In this document: one piece after another, positions 12,432-46,752 of the stretch
Position numbering within the stretch: position 1 is the first letter of the stretch
Layout of the letters: each line of letters starts with the position of its first letter
DNA from: Bacteroidia bacterium
GTDB taxonomy: Bacteria; Bacteroidota; Bacteroidia; NS11-12g; UBA9320
DNA length: 64,000 nucleotides
Direction: 5' to 3'
Assembly: GCA_018402155.1 (NCBI GenBank)
Contig: JAGYJG010000001.1
Span: forward strand, 2,314,501 to 2,378,500
Program-made: the position numbers and the translations under genes
Notes under the pieces: model-generated
The model's input: the letters and a program-made list of their open reading frames with translations, nothing else
Database searches by the model: none
Told to the model about the DNA's origin: nothing

Positions 12432-14285
12432 TTAGCTAAAAAGAGCAAATACAACCCAGCTAGACACGTATGCTAATGCAGTCATATAAACGAACTGAAG
12501 TGTAGGCCATTTCCATGATTTTGTTTCTTTGTAGACCACAGCCAGCGTACCCATACACTGCATAGCAAAAGCATAAAACACCATAAGCGAGAGTACTACT
12601 GCTAAGGAGTATACGGGAGCACCAGAAGGTGTGGTATCGTTATTCATTTTGGTGCGTATCTGTTCAAAATTTTCCTCATCATCTACGCTATAAATAGTGC
12701 TCATAGTGCCCACAAATACTTCGCGAGCAGCAAAAGATGTGATAAGCGAAATGCCAATTTTCCAATTGAACCCAATAGGTGCAATGGCAGGTTCTATAGC
12801 TTTTCCGAAATGACCTGCATAGCTTTGTTCTAGTTCTTCAGATTCTTGTATAGAAAATGGTGTAGTTGGTTTTGGGCCATAACTAGCCAAAAACCAGAGG
12901 ACCATAGAAACAATGAGAATAACTTTGCCTGCTTCAGTGACGAAGCTACGAGATTTTTGCCACATATTGAGCCAAATATTGCTCCAACGAGGAGCATGAT
13001 ATATAGGCAGTTCCATTATAAAATATGAGGGAATTTCATATTTTATAAACCATTTAAATACAACTGCTGCTACTAATGCGGCCAATGTTCCTAGTACATA
13101 CATAGCTAACATAACCAAAGCTTGCAAACTTACTACACCCAAAAACTTGTCGCTAGGTATGGCAAGACTAATGAGTAGGGTATAAACAGGTAATCTAGCC
13201 GAGCAACTCATTAGGGGTGTCACCATAATGGTAATTAGCCTATCTTTCCAGTTTTCGATATTGCGGGTGCTCATAATGGCAGGTATAGCACAAGCAGCAC
13301 CGCTCAATAGTGGCACAACAGATTTTCCACTGAGTCCTAAGCTGCGCAGCATTTTATCCATAATGAAGCTGACCCGAGCCATATAACCGGTATCTTCTAG
13401 TAAGCCCATGAAGAAGAATAATATGGCTATTTGGGGTACAAATACAACAACACCCGCTACACCAGCAAGTAGTCCATTTATTGTCAATCGTTTTAGCCAT
13501 CCTTCTGCTAGAGTTTTGCTCAAAAACTCACTCAGCCAGCCAAAGCCTTGCTCTATCCAATCCATGGGGTAGGCTGCGATTGTAAATACACTTTGAAAAA
13601 TAACTAAAAGCACTATCAAAAACAGAAGATACCCTAGAATGGGGTGGGTAGCCCAAGCATCGATTTTACCACTTACTAGTTCGCGTTTTGACTTCAGTTT
13701 TGTAGTTTTGTTTAGTAGTTTAGCTATAGAGTCATAATGGCTTTCGTGGGTATGATCATCATCGCCTCCAAAGGCATAATGTGGCACAAATTGGTCCTCT
13801 TTTAAGGCTTGTTTTAGGTTTTTTATACCCTCTCCAAGTCTTGCATTTATTTTAAATACCCGGATGCCTAATTCTTTTTCTAGCCTGTCTATATCTATTT
13901 CAAAACCTTTGAAACTTGCGATGTCTAGCATATTGAGAACAAGTACCATAGGTGTACCTTGCTGCGCCAGTTGGCTGAAGTAAAAAAAATTTCTTTTAAG
14001 ATTGGCGGCATCTGCTACATAGACAATTGCATCAGGCGCGGGATCTTCAAAATAGACTTTTACAGCTTCTCTTTCATCCAAGCTTTTAGGATTGAAGGAG
14101 TAGGTGCCAGGGGTATCTATAAGGTGTATTTCTTGTCCATCTACTATCAATTTTCCTACTTTATTTTCTATAGTAGTTCCGGGTATGTTGGTTATTTTCT
14201 GTTTTAGACCTGTGAGCTGGTTAAACAGAGATGACTTACCACAATTTGGGTTTCCGGCGAGAACTATTTTTTTGTAGCTACTCAT
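12432..14285 (-). CDS. feoB: Ferrous iron transporter FeoB
   Basis: 617-residue polytopic inner-membrane Fe(II) transporter with an N-terminal GTPase. G motifs: GNPNCGKSSLFN (G1, about 8-19), NIPGTT (G2), DTPGTYS (G3, about 57-63), NMLD (G4, about 119). The membrane part starts near 215 and contains the two Gate motifs: CAIPAIMSTRNIENW after LLSGAACA (first), and FAAREVFVGTM (second). At 617 residues it is shorter than the enterobacterial protein (773) but complete at both ends, so it is a compact form rather than truncated. It overlaps feoA by one base (TAATG), an arrangement that couples translation. Confidence 0.95.
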   Translation of the reverse strand: MSSYKKIVLAGNPNCGKSSLFNQLTGLKQKITNIPGTTIENKVGKLIVDGQEIHLIDTPGTYSFNPKSLDEREAVKVYFEDPAPDAIVYVADAANLKRNFFYFSQLAQQGTPMVLVLNMLDIASFKGFEIDIDRLEKELGIRVFKINARLGEGIKNLKQALKEDQFVPHYAFGGDDDHTHESHYDSIAKLLNKTTKLKSKRELVSGKIDAWATHPILGYLLFLIVLLVIFQSVFTIAAYPMDWIEQGFGWLSEFLSKTLAEGWLKRLTINGLLAGVAGVVVFVPQIAILFFFMGLLEDTGYMARVSFIMDKMLRSLGLSGKSVVPLLSGAACAIPAIMSTRNIENWKDRLITIMVTPLMSCSARLPVYTLLISLAIPSDKFLGVVSLQALVMLAMYVLGTLAALVAAVVFKWFIKYEIPSYFIMELPIYHAPRWSNIWLNMWQKSRSFVTEAGKVILIVSMVLWFLASYGPKPTTPFSIQESEELEQSYAGHFGKAIEPAIAPIGFNWKIGISLITSFAAREVFVGTMSTIYSVDDEENFEQIRTKMNNDTTPSGAPVYSLAVVLSLMVFYAFAMQCMGTLAVVYKETKSWKWPTLQFVYMTALAYVSSWVVFALFS

Positions 14286-19268: not shown

Positions 19269-20150
19269 ATGAAAGTAGCACTCTATGGCAGACATATAAA
19301 ATCCAAAAATTTCAAAGCATTTTATGAAAAATTTACGGCAATACTCACACGGTATGATATAGCCTATGAGGTGGGTATAGGTTATGGTGCGTTTTTAGCT
19401 GAAGCTTATGGGATACACTGCAATGCGTGCAAAGATACCCCACTAACTCCAGAAAATTTCGCTTGTCTTATAAGTATGGGAGGCGATGGTACGGCGCTAG
19501 ACACCTTGTCGCTGGTAAAAGATTCAGGCTTGCCGGTGATGGGCGTTAATCTAGGTAGACTTGGATTTTTGGCTACCATAAAAATGGACGAAGTAGAAAA
19601 GGCTATTATAGCACTCAAAAATGGCCAAACCATCATAGAAAAAAGAGCGTTGATACATATAGAAAGTACTCTAGAAGAAATCAATCAATTTCCCTATGCG
19701 CTCAATGATTTTGTGGTGCAAAAGAGAGATACCTCTGCAATGATTACCGTAAAAGCTAGCTTAAATAAGTCGTTTTTGAACAATTATTGGGCAGATGGAT
19801 TGATTGTAGCTACTCCAACTGGGTCATCGGGTTACAGTCTAAGTTGTGGAGGGCCGCTCATTTTTCCGGGAAGTAAGTCATTTGTAATAACGCCTATAGC
19901 TGCACACAATCTTACGGTGAGACCTGTGGTGATACCAGACACACACGAGCTTGAGATAGAGGTAAGTGCACGAGCAGAGACAGTTCTTATTACGCTAGAT
20001 TCGCGTTCGTTTATAGTGCCAAATAACACCAAGCTAACTATTCGCAGAGCGCCATTTCATTTCAATATGATACACCCAAGTAGTACCACATATATGGATA
20101 CCATACGCAATAAGCTGCTTTGGGGAGCCGACAAAAGAGATGAAAACTGA
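19269..20150 (+). CDS. nadK: NAD kinase
   Basis: 293 residues; phosphorylates NAD to NADP in the cytosol. The GGDG motif is in SMGGDGTALDTLSL (about 72-85), followed by GVNLGRLGFLATI (about 93-105). The NAD-binding NDFVVQKRD (about 146) and ATPTGSSGYSLSCGGPL (about 178-194) are complete. It begins one base after the BamA-like stop, as the last gene of the run. Length is typical of PpnK/NadK. Downstream to 20437 there is no gene. Confidence 0.95.
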   Translation: MKVALYGRHIKSKNFKAFYEKFTAILTRYDIAYEVGIGYGAFLAEAYGIHCNACKDTPLTPENFACLISMGGDGTALDTLSLVKDSGLPVMGVNLGRLGFLATIKMDEVEKAIIALKNGQTIIEKRALIHIESTLEEINQFPYALNDFVVQKRDTSAMITVKASLNKSFLNNYWADGLIVATPTGSSGYSLSCGGPLIFPGSKSFVITPIAAHNLTVRPVVIPDTHELEIEVSARAETVLITLDSRSFIVPNNTKLTIRRAPFHFNMIHPSSTTYMDTIRNKLLWGADKRDEN

Positions 20151-23567: not shown

Positions 23568-23631
23568 ATGAGCAAGAGTAAGTTTACACCGCATCAGATT
23601 GCGAAGATTTTAAAGTAGTTTGAAGCTGGTA
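23568..23631 (+). mobile_element. IS3-family transposase OrfA remnant
   Basis: From ATG 23568 the text MSKSKFTPHQIAKILK is followed by TAG where the family has Glu, then FEAGK. This is the helix-turn-helix start of an IS3-family OrfA. The preceding 80 bases (GATGTGTGTAAGCTTCCCCC, then AAATTAGAAAAAGGTAACT) are probably the left end of the element. After 21 codons the sequence switches abruptly to a piece of the WYL regulator gene (23632), so the rest of the IS, including OrfB, is gone. Not functional. Confidence 0.7.
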
Positions 23632-23704
23632 AGTGTCCAGTACTTCCACACCAGACATTCGTTCAATAGTAAAGTACTTATTTAGCTGTGTGCTCACCTC
23701 AAAT
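23632..23704 (+). repeat. 73-bp duplicate of part of the WYL regulator gene
   Basis: Identical to 36702-36774 apart from one base (T for C). At the right-hand location it is coding sequence of the WYL regulator (minus strand, around TQLNKYFTVERMSGVEVLD). Here it is an isolated fragment fused to the IS3 remnant. Direct orientation. Confidence 0.9.
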
Positions 23705-23799: not shown

Positions 23800-23849
23800 T
23801 AACCATCAATTGGTTATGTATGTCAAGTTTTTACATAAAAAACTTGACA
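23800..23849 (+). promoter_or_regulatory. Two inverted repeats upstream of abiEi: candidate AbiEi operator
   Basis: IR1 is TAACCA-(5)-TGGTTA at 23800-23816. IR2 is TGTCAAGTTTTT-(5)-AAAAACTTGACA at 23821-23849, a perfect 12-bp palindrome. Both have a 5-base spacer. They lie about 85-135 bp before the ATG. In characterised AbiE systems the antitoxin AbiEi represses its own promoter by binding two inverted repeats, so this layout fits. A promoter would follow, with TTG inside IR2 (23845-23847 region) and a CCTTTG box near 23868-23873. Confidence 0.6.
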
Positions 23850-23933
23850 TTTGAATTTAAATAACCACCTTTGTAATAAGAAACGGAGCTTTAGCGTAGT
23901 TCCATACTACCAATACAAAATAGAAACGCACGA

Positions 23934-24657
23934 ATGAAAGTAGCAGCGCAAATACGAAATACCATTGAACGCATTCCTGAAAGTCAACCTTTTGGCTATG
24001 CTGATTTGGGAATAGAAGCGAATGATTTTTATAGTGCTGCTAAGGCTTTGGAGCGTTTACAAAGAATGGGACTATAAAAAGGTATCTAAAGGTGTATTTT
24101 ATATTCCACGTAAAACCATATTTGGAGAGTTGGGCCCAGATAGCAATGGTATATTGGAAAGGTACTTATTTGAAGATGGTAAACGAGTAGCGTATGAAAC
24201 AGGCTTTTCTTTATACAATAGAATGGGATTAACAACACAAATGGCTTTTAAAATAAAGATTGCCACAAAGAAAAATCCCATCAACATAAATCAAGGTACA
24301 CTGCAAGTAAGTTCGGTGAAAAGTTATGTTGATATAACAGAGAAAAAACTATCAACTGTTAGGTTATTTGGATGCTTTGAAAGACATCAGAAGAATCCCC
24401 GATTGCTCAGTTATACAGGCAATAAAGCGAATGAGTTTTTACTAAAAAGCGTTAACCTCAAAGGAGCAAAAGAACTCATTCAATATGCATTGTTTTATCC
24501 AGCTAGAGTAAGATCATTGCTTGGAGCAATTTTAGAAAATCTAAATGTAACCATACAACTGGAAGAATTAAAAAGCAGTCTTAATCCATTGACGAAAATT
24601 AACATAAGCATAAAAGCAACAGAACTGCCAACTGTCAAAAACTGGAATATTGAATGA
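23934..24657 (+). pseudogene. AbiEi-like antitoxin / DUF6088 protein, one frameshift
   Basis: From ATG 23934 an N-terminal winged-helix domain (KVAAQIRNTIERIPESQPFGYADL, ALERLQRMG) is read, then a shift at about 24075 leads into KKVSKGVFYIPRKTIFGELGPD and the rest of a DUF6088/AbiEi-type protein to TGA at 24657. About 240 residues. AbiEi is the transcriptional autorepressor and antitoxin of the type IV toxin-antitoxin system AbiE, which can abort phage infection. It overlaps the downstream toxin gene by 4 bp (ATGA), the standard AbiE arrangement. Only one shift separates it from an intact gene. Confidence 0.75.
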
Positions 24658-25505
24658 TACTGCACAAGGATGATATTATTTTTAAAGATTTGTTGCTCAG
24701 TGCTTCTTTGCATTTAAACATCCCATTGTCCTTTGTCGAAAAAGATTATTGGATAACATGGGTGTTAAGTGGATTGGCAAAAAGTAAATATGTTAATGAG
24801 TCTGTTTTTAAAGGAGGCACATCGCTTTCAAAAGGATACCATCTGATAGAGCGATTTTCGGAGGATGTAGATATTGCCATTATCAACGATAAGGGTAAAA
24901 CAGGTAATGAGATAAAAACCATCATCCGCACAATTGAAAAGAAATCACACGCGATTTAAAAGAGTTACAATTGGACGGTGTAACAAGTAAAGGTTCAAGA
25001 TTCAGAAAATCTGTTTTCAGATATGTTACCACCGAAAAAGGCAACACAAACAACAAACTCATTGTGGAGGTAAACTCGTTTGCCAATCCTTTCCCTTTTC
25101 AACGACTTACCATTCAGAGTATGGTATTTGACTTTTTGATGCAAACAAGCAATGAAAAGTACATTGAGCAATACAATCTAAACTCCTTTGAAGTAAACGT
25201 ATTGAGCAAAAGAACAAACGCTATTGGAAAAGATGGTGTCATTAATTCGATTTTCATATAAGGAAAATACTGTTCAAAGTATCTCCGAAAAGATAAGACA
25301 CTTTTATGATTTGTATTACTTAGTTCAACATCCTGAGTGCATTGCATTTGTGGCATCCGATTCGTTTAAGGCACAATTTGACACCATTCTGCAACACGAT
25401 AGAGCTATGTTTGAAGAGCCGACTGGTTGGCAAACTAAAGTGATTTCGGAATCTCCGTTGGTAATTGATTTTACAAAAGTTTGGCAACAACTCAAAGAAA
25501 TATAA
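24654..25505 (+). pseudogene. AbiEii-like nucleotidyltransferase toxin, two frameshifts
   Basis: Nucleotidyltransferase of the AbiEii/PF08843 type, the toxin of AbiE. The catalytic motif is intact: FKGGTSLSKGYHLIERFSEDVDIAI (Gly-Gly, Ser, then Asp-x-Asp-like acidic pair). N-terminal helix VEKDYWITWVL is typical. Frames shift at about 24948 (an A run; restoring one A gives TRDLKELQLDGVTSKG) and at about 25222 (giving LLEKMVSLIRFSYKE). It ends PLVIDFTKVWQQLKEI. About 283 residues when restored, a normal length. Confidence 0.8.
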
Positions 25506-44919: not shown

Positions 44920-45109
44920 TTTGAGGTAAGCTTGGAAATTACTGTGGAATGAAGTTACCACAAAAGAAGCCCACGACCGCAGTAACTGCCCTATGGACGA
45001 AATAGAAAACCCGTTATGGCAGCTGGATGAGATGAGGTGATAGTGTGAGGGTGCAGATAAAACAAACTAAAATAAAAATGTTTCCCCTTTTGTTTCCCCC
45101 AATATAAAA

Positions 45110-45471: not shown

Positions 45472-46752
<1,281 letters not shown>

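Follow-up and report, generated by a model that had tools for sequence, protein, structure and literature searches.

Do the inverted repeats that lie ahead of a broken abiE operon in a genome of the Bacteroidia form an operator for the antitoxin AbiEi, and could such an operator still be at work? The AbiEi proteins studied in Streptococcus agalactiae, S. suis and Mycobacterium tuberculosis repress their own operon by binding repeats over its promoter (PMC3985639, PMC7319586, PMC11062541), except for Rv1044, which reportedly did not bind its own upstream region. The literature on AbiEi autoregulation that we found concerns, in its accessible parts, Streptococcus and Mycobacterium operons. In the literature searched, which leaves most subscription papers outside, we found no AbiEi operator of this kind in Bacteroidota, and the name DUF6088 was mentioned in passing only. 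The AbiE system is known; the operator rule for DUF6088 proteins described below did not turn up in that literature.

A single palindrome ahead of abiEi

Two inverted repeats are present, as the first-pass annotation had reported, ahead of abiEi in the window (that is, the whole stretch of 64,000 nucleotides that was analysed; Table 1), and the reported stretch maps to 2,338,300-2,338,349 of contig 1 in a genome of 2.49 Mb and 10 contigs. The long repeat, ATGTCAAGTTTTT-N5-AAAAACTTGACAT, is perfect and has arms of 13 bp rather than the 12 bp initially given, and the short one, TAACCA-tcaat-TGGTTA, has 6-bp arms and also a 5-bp spacer. The long repeat exceeds chance, while repeats like the 6-bp one are common: the window holds two inverted repeats with arms of at least 13 bp and spacers of 3-10 versus one in 20 whole-window shuffles combined, and 33 with arms of at least 6 bp and a spacer of exactly 5 versus 16-23 per shuffle (five shuffles). 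The 401 nt around the short repeat hold two of the latter kind, the long one counted, versus a shuffle mean of 0.07, and the nearness of the short repeat to the long one is mildly out of the ordinary.

A same-genus relative (L006) keeps the long repeat with a 6-bp spacer, and its counterpart of the 6-bp repeat is broken by substitutions. The 6-bp repeat was considered as a second operator and rejected, being of a frequent type and lost in this relative; it is probably due to chance and no part of the operator. The equal 5-bp spacers look like coincidence, and the proposed layout, with a 6-bp and a 12-bp repeat as an operator pair, does not hold. It was likened to the two inverted repeats bound by AbiEi in studied systems; since the published IR1 and IR2 of Streptococcus are the two arms of a single palindrome (PMC3985639), the earlier reading had paired the wrong elements. 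In its own genome the long repeat is a single copy, even with up to three mismatches allowed, and the leader motif is likewise found in that one copy and nowhere else.

Table 1. Positions of the features discussed in the text (in the window unless a genome and contig are given).
Feature	Position	Strand	Remark
Long inverted repeat	23820-23850		arms 23820-23832 and 23838-23850, spacer 5
Core half-sites of the long repeat	TGTCAAG 23821-23827; CTTGACA 23843-23849	.	15 bp between them (16 in relatives)
Short inverted repeat TAACCA-N5-TGGTTA	23800-23816	.	6-bp arms; outside the operator
Second inverted repeat with arms of at least 13 bp	13016-13048
Predicted -33 region (contains TTG), within the right half-site	23842-23849	+	placed from box position -12 to -5 and offset 23
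Degenerate -7 box CACCTTTG (consensus TAnnTTTG)	23866-23873	+	23 bp from right half-site start
Leader, predicted transcription start to abiEi	23878-23933	+	56 bp
abiEi (DUF6088 antitoxin/autorepressor)	23934-24657	+	frameshifted when compared with L006, an intact copy from the same genus
abiEii (AbiEii nucleotidyltransferase toxin family)	24654-25505	+	at least three open pieces
NAD kinase-like gene, flanking the island	19269-20150		named by eye
Decayed island	21521-45768
N-terminal end of an IS3-type transposase ORF, with stop	about 23568-23650		by eye
Right island edge, matching G030	44958-45040		90% match to DNA shortly upstream of abiE in G030 (L003)
GAPDH-like gene, flanking the island	45769-46752		named by eye
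Motif copies with no abiE seen nearby (L183-L185)	G411:C69:5130-5159; G137:C71:133-162; G208:C25:3911-3940

The operon and its surroundings are decayed

The palindrome is followed by an antitoxin gene and then an AbiEii gene, both split across several frames. The intact same-genus copy of the antitoxin gene (L003/L006, genome G030) is 96% identical at the DNA level over 1067 columns and matches DUF6088 (PF19570), and the first piece of the window's abiEii matches PF08843 and has an intact homologue in L004 (blastn to L004). The description of the region as full of indels was borne out well beyond the operon: the 24-kb stretch around it contains one open reading frame of at least 200 aa versus 24 in the rest of the window, and is a decayed island flanked by intact genes (Table 1). 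The long, intact reading frames on both sides of the island argue against assembly error as an explanation for all of the indels; the 15-bp spacer itself could still be such an error. The right edge of the island matches DNA near abiE in G030, which possibly reflects a shared insertion neighbourhood.

The proteins of the relatives match the PADLOC models PDLC02226 (AbiEi) and PDLC02292 (AbiEii), and DUF6088 (PF19570) was found in all 43 of the 43 aligned members. NCBIfam returned nothing for L021, L004 and L101, and the short protein L142 matches TAA_AbiEi far below the cut-off; a sequence-profile search of the PDB gave no matches. An AlphaFold2 model of the L021 AbiEi (pLDDT 89.2) has as its top Foldseek matches 6y8q_A (E 2.4e-4, TMq 0.41), which is S. 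agalactiae AbiEi, and 1zel_A (E 2.5e-4, TMq 0.53), which is Rv2827c; these TM-scores are modest and computed over the query chain. VIA gave the same two structures (1zel_B, Z 9.5, rmsd 5.6 over 223; 6y8q_A, Z 8.4, rmsd 5.0 over 178). The predicted structure shows an AbiEi-like fold, an N-terminal winged helix followed by a C-terminal antitoxicity domain.

The palindrome is conserved upstream of intact relatives

Loci were found with a 10-protein alignment, and the best-scoring 80 of at least 474, which lean to the window's own subgroup, were fetched from named genomes. In their upstream regions (200 nt), TGTCAAG-N16-CTTGACA is perfect in 68 of these best 80 of at least 474, and at least 12 of 14 positions are matched in 78, versus about 0.35 of 80 in dinucleotide shuffles, the scan being motif-seeded with a tie-break that favours spacer 16. 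Conservation among the same 80 extends to the outer letters TGTCAAG/CTTGACA and the N16 spacing, with variable inner letters, and several order-level relatives retain both the outer letters and the fixed spacing.

From all loci we compiled 145 non-redundant AbiEi genes (166 before redundancy removal; genes shorter than 150 aa or lacking a start codon near the expected place had been dropped beforehand, and L119 is not among the rows kept). An AbiEii match lies downstream in 127 of the 145 loci, and some of the other 18 are at contig ends. The set consists of 104 long proteins (group A, to which the window belongs, and group B) and 41 short ones (group C); in the sample of the class, group B makes up about two thirds of the long AbiEi. 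A later scan, which has neither motif seed nor tie-break, counted perfect 7-bp arms within the 95 nt nearest the gene and misses operators beyond that distance. At spacer 16 it found such arms in 65 of 88 group-A upstreams (2.0 in shuffles; this row includes some distant proteins) and in 14 of 18 in group B (0.6), two 'KSLNR' loci standing in both rows (88 + 18 versus 104 proteins), and at spacer 15 in 15 of 41 in group C (1.2). Neighbouring even spacers are also high because the arms extend inwards. The odd spacers of group A hold 0-2 loci each, and spacer 15 occurs in 0 of 88, so the N15 of the window is out of register with its group. Between the 7-bp cores, the spacing is N16 in groups A and B and N14-N16 in group C.

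With six consensus/spacer sets, 22 of the 145 loci score below 12/14, 8 of 104 long (L018, L061, L092, L123, L181, L182, L186 and L187) and 14 of 41 short; the best of the six was taken per locus, which inflates low scores, and a single good arm can suffice for a score of 12 (L011 and L121 are examples).

Fourteen plasmid loci obtained by protein search, which had not been used in deriving the motif, were scored for inverted repeats of any sequence with a spacer of 14-16, TGTC earning a bonus. Eleven reach at least 12/15, every one at spacer 16, against 1.2% of shuffles. TGTCAAG is found in Emticicia, in three Pontibacter and in two of five Hymenobacter copies, while the remaining three from Hymenobacter have an imperfect TGTAATG...CTTTACA; the Pontibacter and Hymenobacter copies are close relatives. 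The Runella AbiEi, a group-B protein ('KALNR'), has TGTCCAG, matching the prediction of the group rule, and the Prevotella copy has TGTTGTG-N16-CACAACA. The Deferribacter, Selenomonas and P. distasonis plasmid loci fall below this threshold. NCBI annotates the plasmid copies as 'DUF6088 family protein', except that the Prevotella record has no annotation there. The proposed reading of the TGTCAAG palindrome as an AbiEi-type operator element, conserved upstream of DUF6088-AbiEii pairs across Bacteroidota, is supported; the alignment of such upstream regions, which could have revealed no conservation of either repeat, shows this palindrome retained.

Some loci carry tandem operators. Three A-type genes (L063, L066 and L068) have a B-type operator 55-76 bp upstream of the A-type one, and two B-type genes (L104 and L113) have an A-like or hybrid operator about 41 bp upstream of the B-type one, with a weaker trace in L107. 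Outside Bacteroidota, group-A AbiEi with a matching operator were seen in Pelistega suis (L056, Pseudomonadota; operator letters AGTCAAG...CTTGACT), in a Thioglobus MAG (L096) and in Ignavibacteriota MAGs (L027 and L064), and these copies would reflect horizontal transfer or, for the MAGs, misbinning. Among viral contigs the exact motif was not found, and a protein search gave 16 pattern matches and no relatives.

The probable operator lies at a defined position on the predicted promoter

Promoters of Bacteroidota have a -7 box, TAnnTTTG, and a TTTG near -33 (PMC7366714), the latter reported there as not found in Flavobacterium johnsoniae; in F. psychrophilum the -7 box spans -12 to -5 relative to the start (PMC9723704). 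The inverted-repeat operator overlaps the operon promoter so predicted. The right half-site of group A begins 22-24 bp ahead of the box in 59 of the 61 loci that have an exact one (15 of 76 group-A operators lack an exact TAnnTTTG box); judged from sequence, it would begin at about -35 of the predicted promoter and cover the -33 element. The 23-bp distance in the window is the usual one for its AbiEi group, and the same degenerate box is also found in L006. In group B the right half-site starts 13-14 bp before the box in 16 of 17 loci, and of 27 good-match group-C loci, 20 have it beginning 6 bp, and 4 have it beginning 8 bp, downstream of the first base of the box, which places the operator on the -7 box itself. 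It is suggestive that these shifts between groups, about 9-10 and 20 bp, would correspond to roughly one and two helical turns, a reading that takes the offsets as 22-24, 13-14 and -6.

The box of group A ends 4 nt before the ATG in 40 of 61 loci, and in 58 of 61 the distance is 3-7 nt; the leader of the abiE mRNA is accordingly predicted to be about 0-3 nt, that is, a leaderless antitoxin mRNA. Only a smaller share of the mRNAs of this phylum is of this sort: leaderless messages amount to 5.5% in F. psychrophilum (PMC9723704), and about 3.7% of leaders in B. thetaiotaomicron are shorter than 10 nt (PMC7366714). A leader of about 56 nt is common to the window, to L006 and, in diverged form, to L049 and L057; most boxed group-A relatives have none. 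A conserved 19-codon upstream reading frame in the leader of L006 was considered and rejected, the leaders of L049 and L057 having in-frame stops.

Half-site letters follow the AbiEi clade

The correspondence between operator and protein was analysed on perfectly symmetric half-site loci only (102 of 145). Seven half-site classes, distributed over 71 proteins below 80% identity, require 8 changes on the tree, the minimum being 6 and the shuffled mean 28.0, and none of 200 shuffles was as low as 8. The TGTCCAG-type class corresponds to one side of a single branch (support 99/98), and the TGTAACA-type class takes three changes; the small TGTCACA-type class is without clear clustering (29 of 500 shuffles as low). 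For the larger classes, the half-site follows the AbiEi clade, and two other AbiEi groups use other half-sites.

In a set of 47 proteins below 70% identity, residues 36 and 40 stand out as the N-terminal columns that tell most about half-site bases 4-6, in an analysis confounded by ancestry and in which L063 is labelled by its extra B operator (a label put right for the tree and for the pairing counts below). Both residues lie in helix 29-44 of the predicted structure, which by homology is the predicted recognition helix. Over the 102 symmetric loci, residue 40 and base 5 pair in group C as Glu-G (7 of 7), Leu-C (2 of 2), Ser-A (6 of 6), His-A (3), Phe-A (2), Asn-A (1) and Thr-A (1), 22 of 22 in all, in group A as Glu-A (66) and Ser-A (1), and in group B as Asn-C (13 of 13). 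The pairing is exact within a group and different across groups, ancestry and cause not being separated.

A probable relic operator and its alternatives

Taken together, the 13-bp repeat is very probably the relic operator of a type IV toxin-antitoxin operon, abiEi-abiEii, in whose intact relatives AbiEi would sit on both half-sites and block the -33 element. The observations on which this rests are the conservation of the palindrome, its strict spacing, its place relative to the promoter box, its linkage to abiEi-abiEii, the half-site that follows the clade and the AbiEi-like fold, and from them we infer that AbiEi binds with a monomer on each arm, that it represses the operon, and where transcription starts. 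Each TGTCAAG half-site of an intact relative would be occupied by one AbiEi winged-helix domain, two molecules in the N16 register, the 13-bp repeat supplying both arms by itself. The downstream half-site would cover the -33 element of a sigma-A-type Bacteroidota promoter, and bound AbiEi would block RNA polymerase and turn its own operon down. In most boxed relatives, transcription would begin on the abiEi start codon or no more than about 3 nt from it. The operon of the window is dead, neither of its frameshifted genes encoding an intact product as read, and with its 15-bp spacer and degenerate -7 box the palindrome probably no longer works as a switch; N16 with an intact cognate AbiEi is not found there.

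It is improbable that another DNA-binding protein, a regulator of the host or of an element, rather than AbiEi controls abiE promoters through this site. Such a protein could account for copies of the motif away from abiE. Exact TGTCAAG-N16-CTTGACA occurs in 7 of 395 genomes of the class (a reversed control pattern in 3 of 395); four have it at abiEi (G180, G195, G350 and G455), and in the other three no abiE was seen nearby (Table 1). One of these sites comes right after an integrase-like gene and has the same 30 letters as the operator of L063/L066; the other two adjoin HipB-like HTH genes, all these neighbours being named by eye from ORFs. The solitary sites may be relics, extra AbiEi sites on mobile elements or, in part, chance. 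Against a foreign regulator speak the change of the half-site with the AbiEi clade and, among the N-terminal columns, above all with residues 36 and 40, which lie in the predicted recognition helix, the Runella plasmid protein with its predicted TGTCCAG, and the binding of studied AbiEi, Rv1044 apart, to their own promoters (PMC3985639, PMC7319586, PMC11062541). A perfect 13-bp stem could also fold in RNA, yet a terminator or hairpin of a neighbouring gene is very improbable: the palindrome of group A lies upstream of the predicted abiE start (about -58 to -29), its stem is not G+C-rich, its outer letters and N16 are kept while inner letters vary, and the neighbouring genes differ among the loci looked at.

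Whether the relic remains under selection or in use here, say by an AbiEi from another locus of the genome, bears on the hint of recent function that the first-pass annotation saw in the intact palindrome. Compared with L006, the arms are indeed unchanged (0 of 26 sites versus 18 of 127 in the flanks; Fisher p = 0.044, or 0.079 counting substitutions only and 0.20 with a gap included that lies where the left arm borders the spacer), which is a weak sign of late selection or recent function, with a single relative compared. The spacer is nevertheless off register by one base and the operon broken, the integrity of the arms may predate the breakage of the genes, and AbiEi matches in the genome itself are pieces of the broken gene only, the DUF6088 model finding none; continued use is quite improbable. 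The surroundings are decayed and, by eye, rich in element remains, as would suit the terminal inverted repeat of a small transposable element, a reading that the single genome copy and the fixed distance from abiEi in tens of genomes already contradict and that we hold to be next to impossible.

The earlier finding is, with the relic operator as the preferred reading, real in its main part, its layout was misread, and the element is a relic in this genome. Beyond the window, one rule predicts the operator, the blocked promoter element and the mRNA start for much of DUF6088 in a phylum with unusual promoters, helps to annotate DUF6088 proteins as AbiEi autorepressors, and offers a case of recognition-helix residues and operator letters changing together. 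We tentatively suggest, while holding it somewhat doubtful, that a single operator grammar may serve the DUF6088 AbiEi of Bacteroidota, with outliers in other phyla: half-sites led by TGT in a fixed register, inner letters read by residue 40 and its neighbours, and an operator shifted along the promoter in steps of about one and two helical turns between clades (at -33, between the boxes, on -7), the window's clade being leaderless. If so, a leaderless antitoxin mRNA would let antitoxin synthesis use a separate translation route when the toxin acts.

Comparison with known AbiEi systems

The PADLOC AbiEi and AbiEii models and PF19570 match the same proteins as those considered here; they cover the protein only and are silent on operators. 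The closest parallel is with S. agalactiae abiE, likewise an autoregulatory AbiEi-AbiEii operon with one palindrome, whose arms have a TGT start and a T-rich flank and one of which lies over -35 (PMC3985639). There, IR1 and IR2 are the arms of TGTTGCTTTTA-N27-TAAAAGCAACA, and one monomer per arm was proposed (Dy et al., 2014, PMC3985639); the arm spacing is wider (N27, 11-bp arms), so the equivalence of arm and monomer is an assumption on our part. The outer span is 49 bp in S. agalactiae versus 30 bp here, IR1 holds the -35 element whereas in the window's group it is the downstream arm that would lie over -33, and the start was mapped 26 bp before the ATG whereas leaderless transcripts are predicted here; the half-site letters differ as well (PMC3985639). 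The palindrome described here is thus not an operator of the S. agalactiae type, with N27 and arms that extend to 23 bp with 3 bp between them. The operator of Rv2827c in M. tuberculosis resembles it in that an antitoxin of AbiEi fold binds inverted repeats over the promoter (Beck et al., 2020, PMC7319586), but comprises four repeats in two pairs, bound with negative cooperativity, as opposed to the one palindrome of most loci here (PMC7319586).
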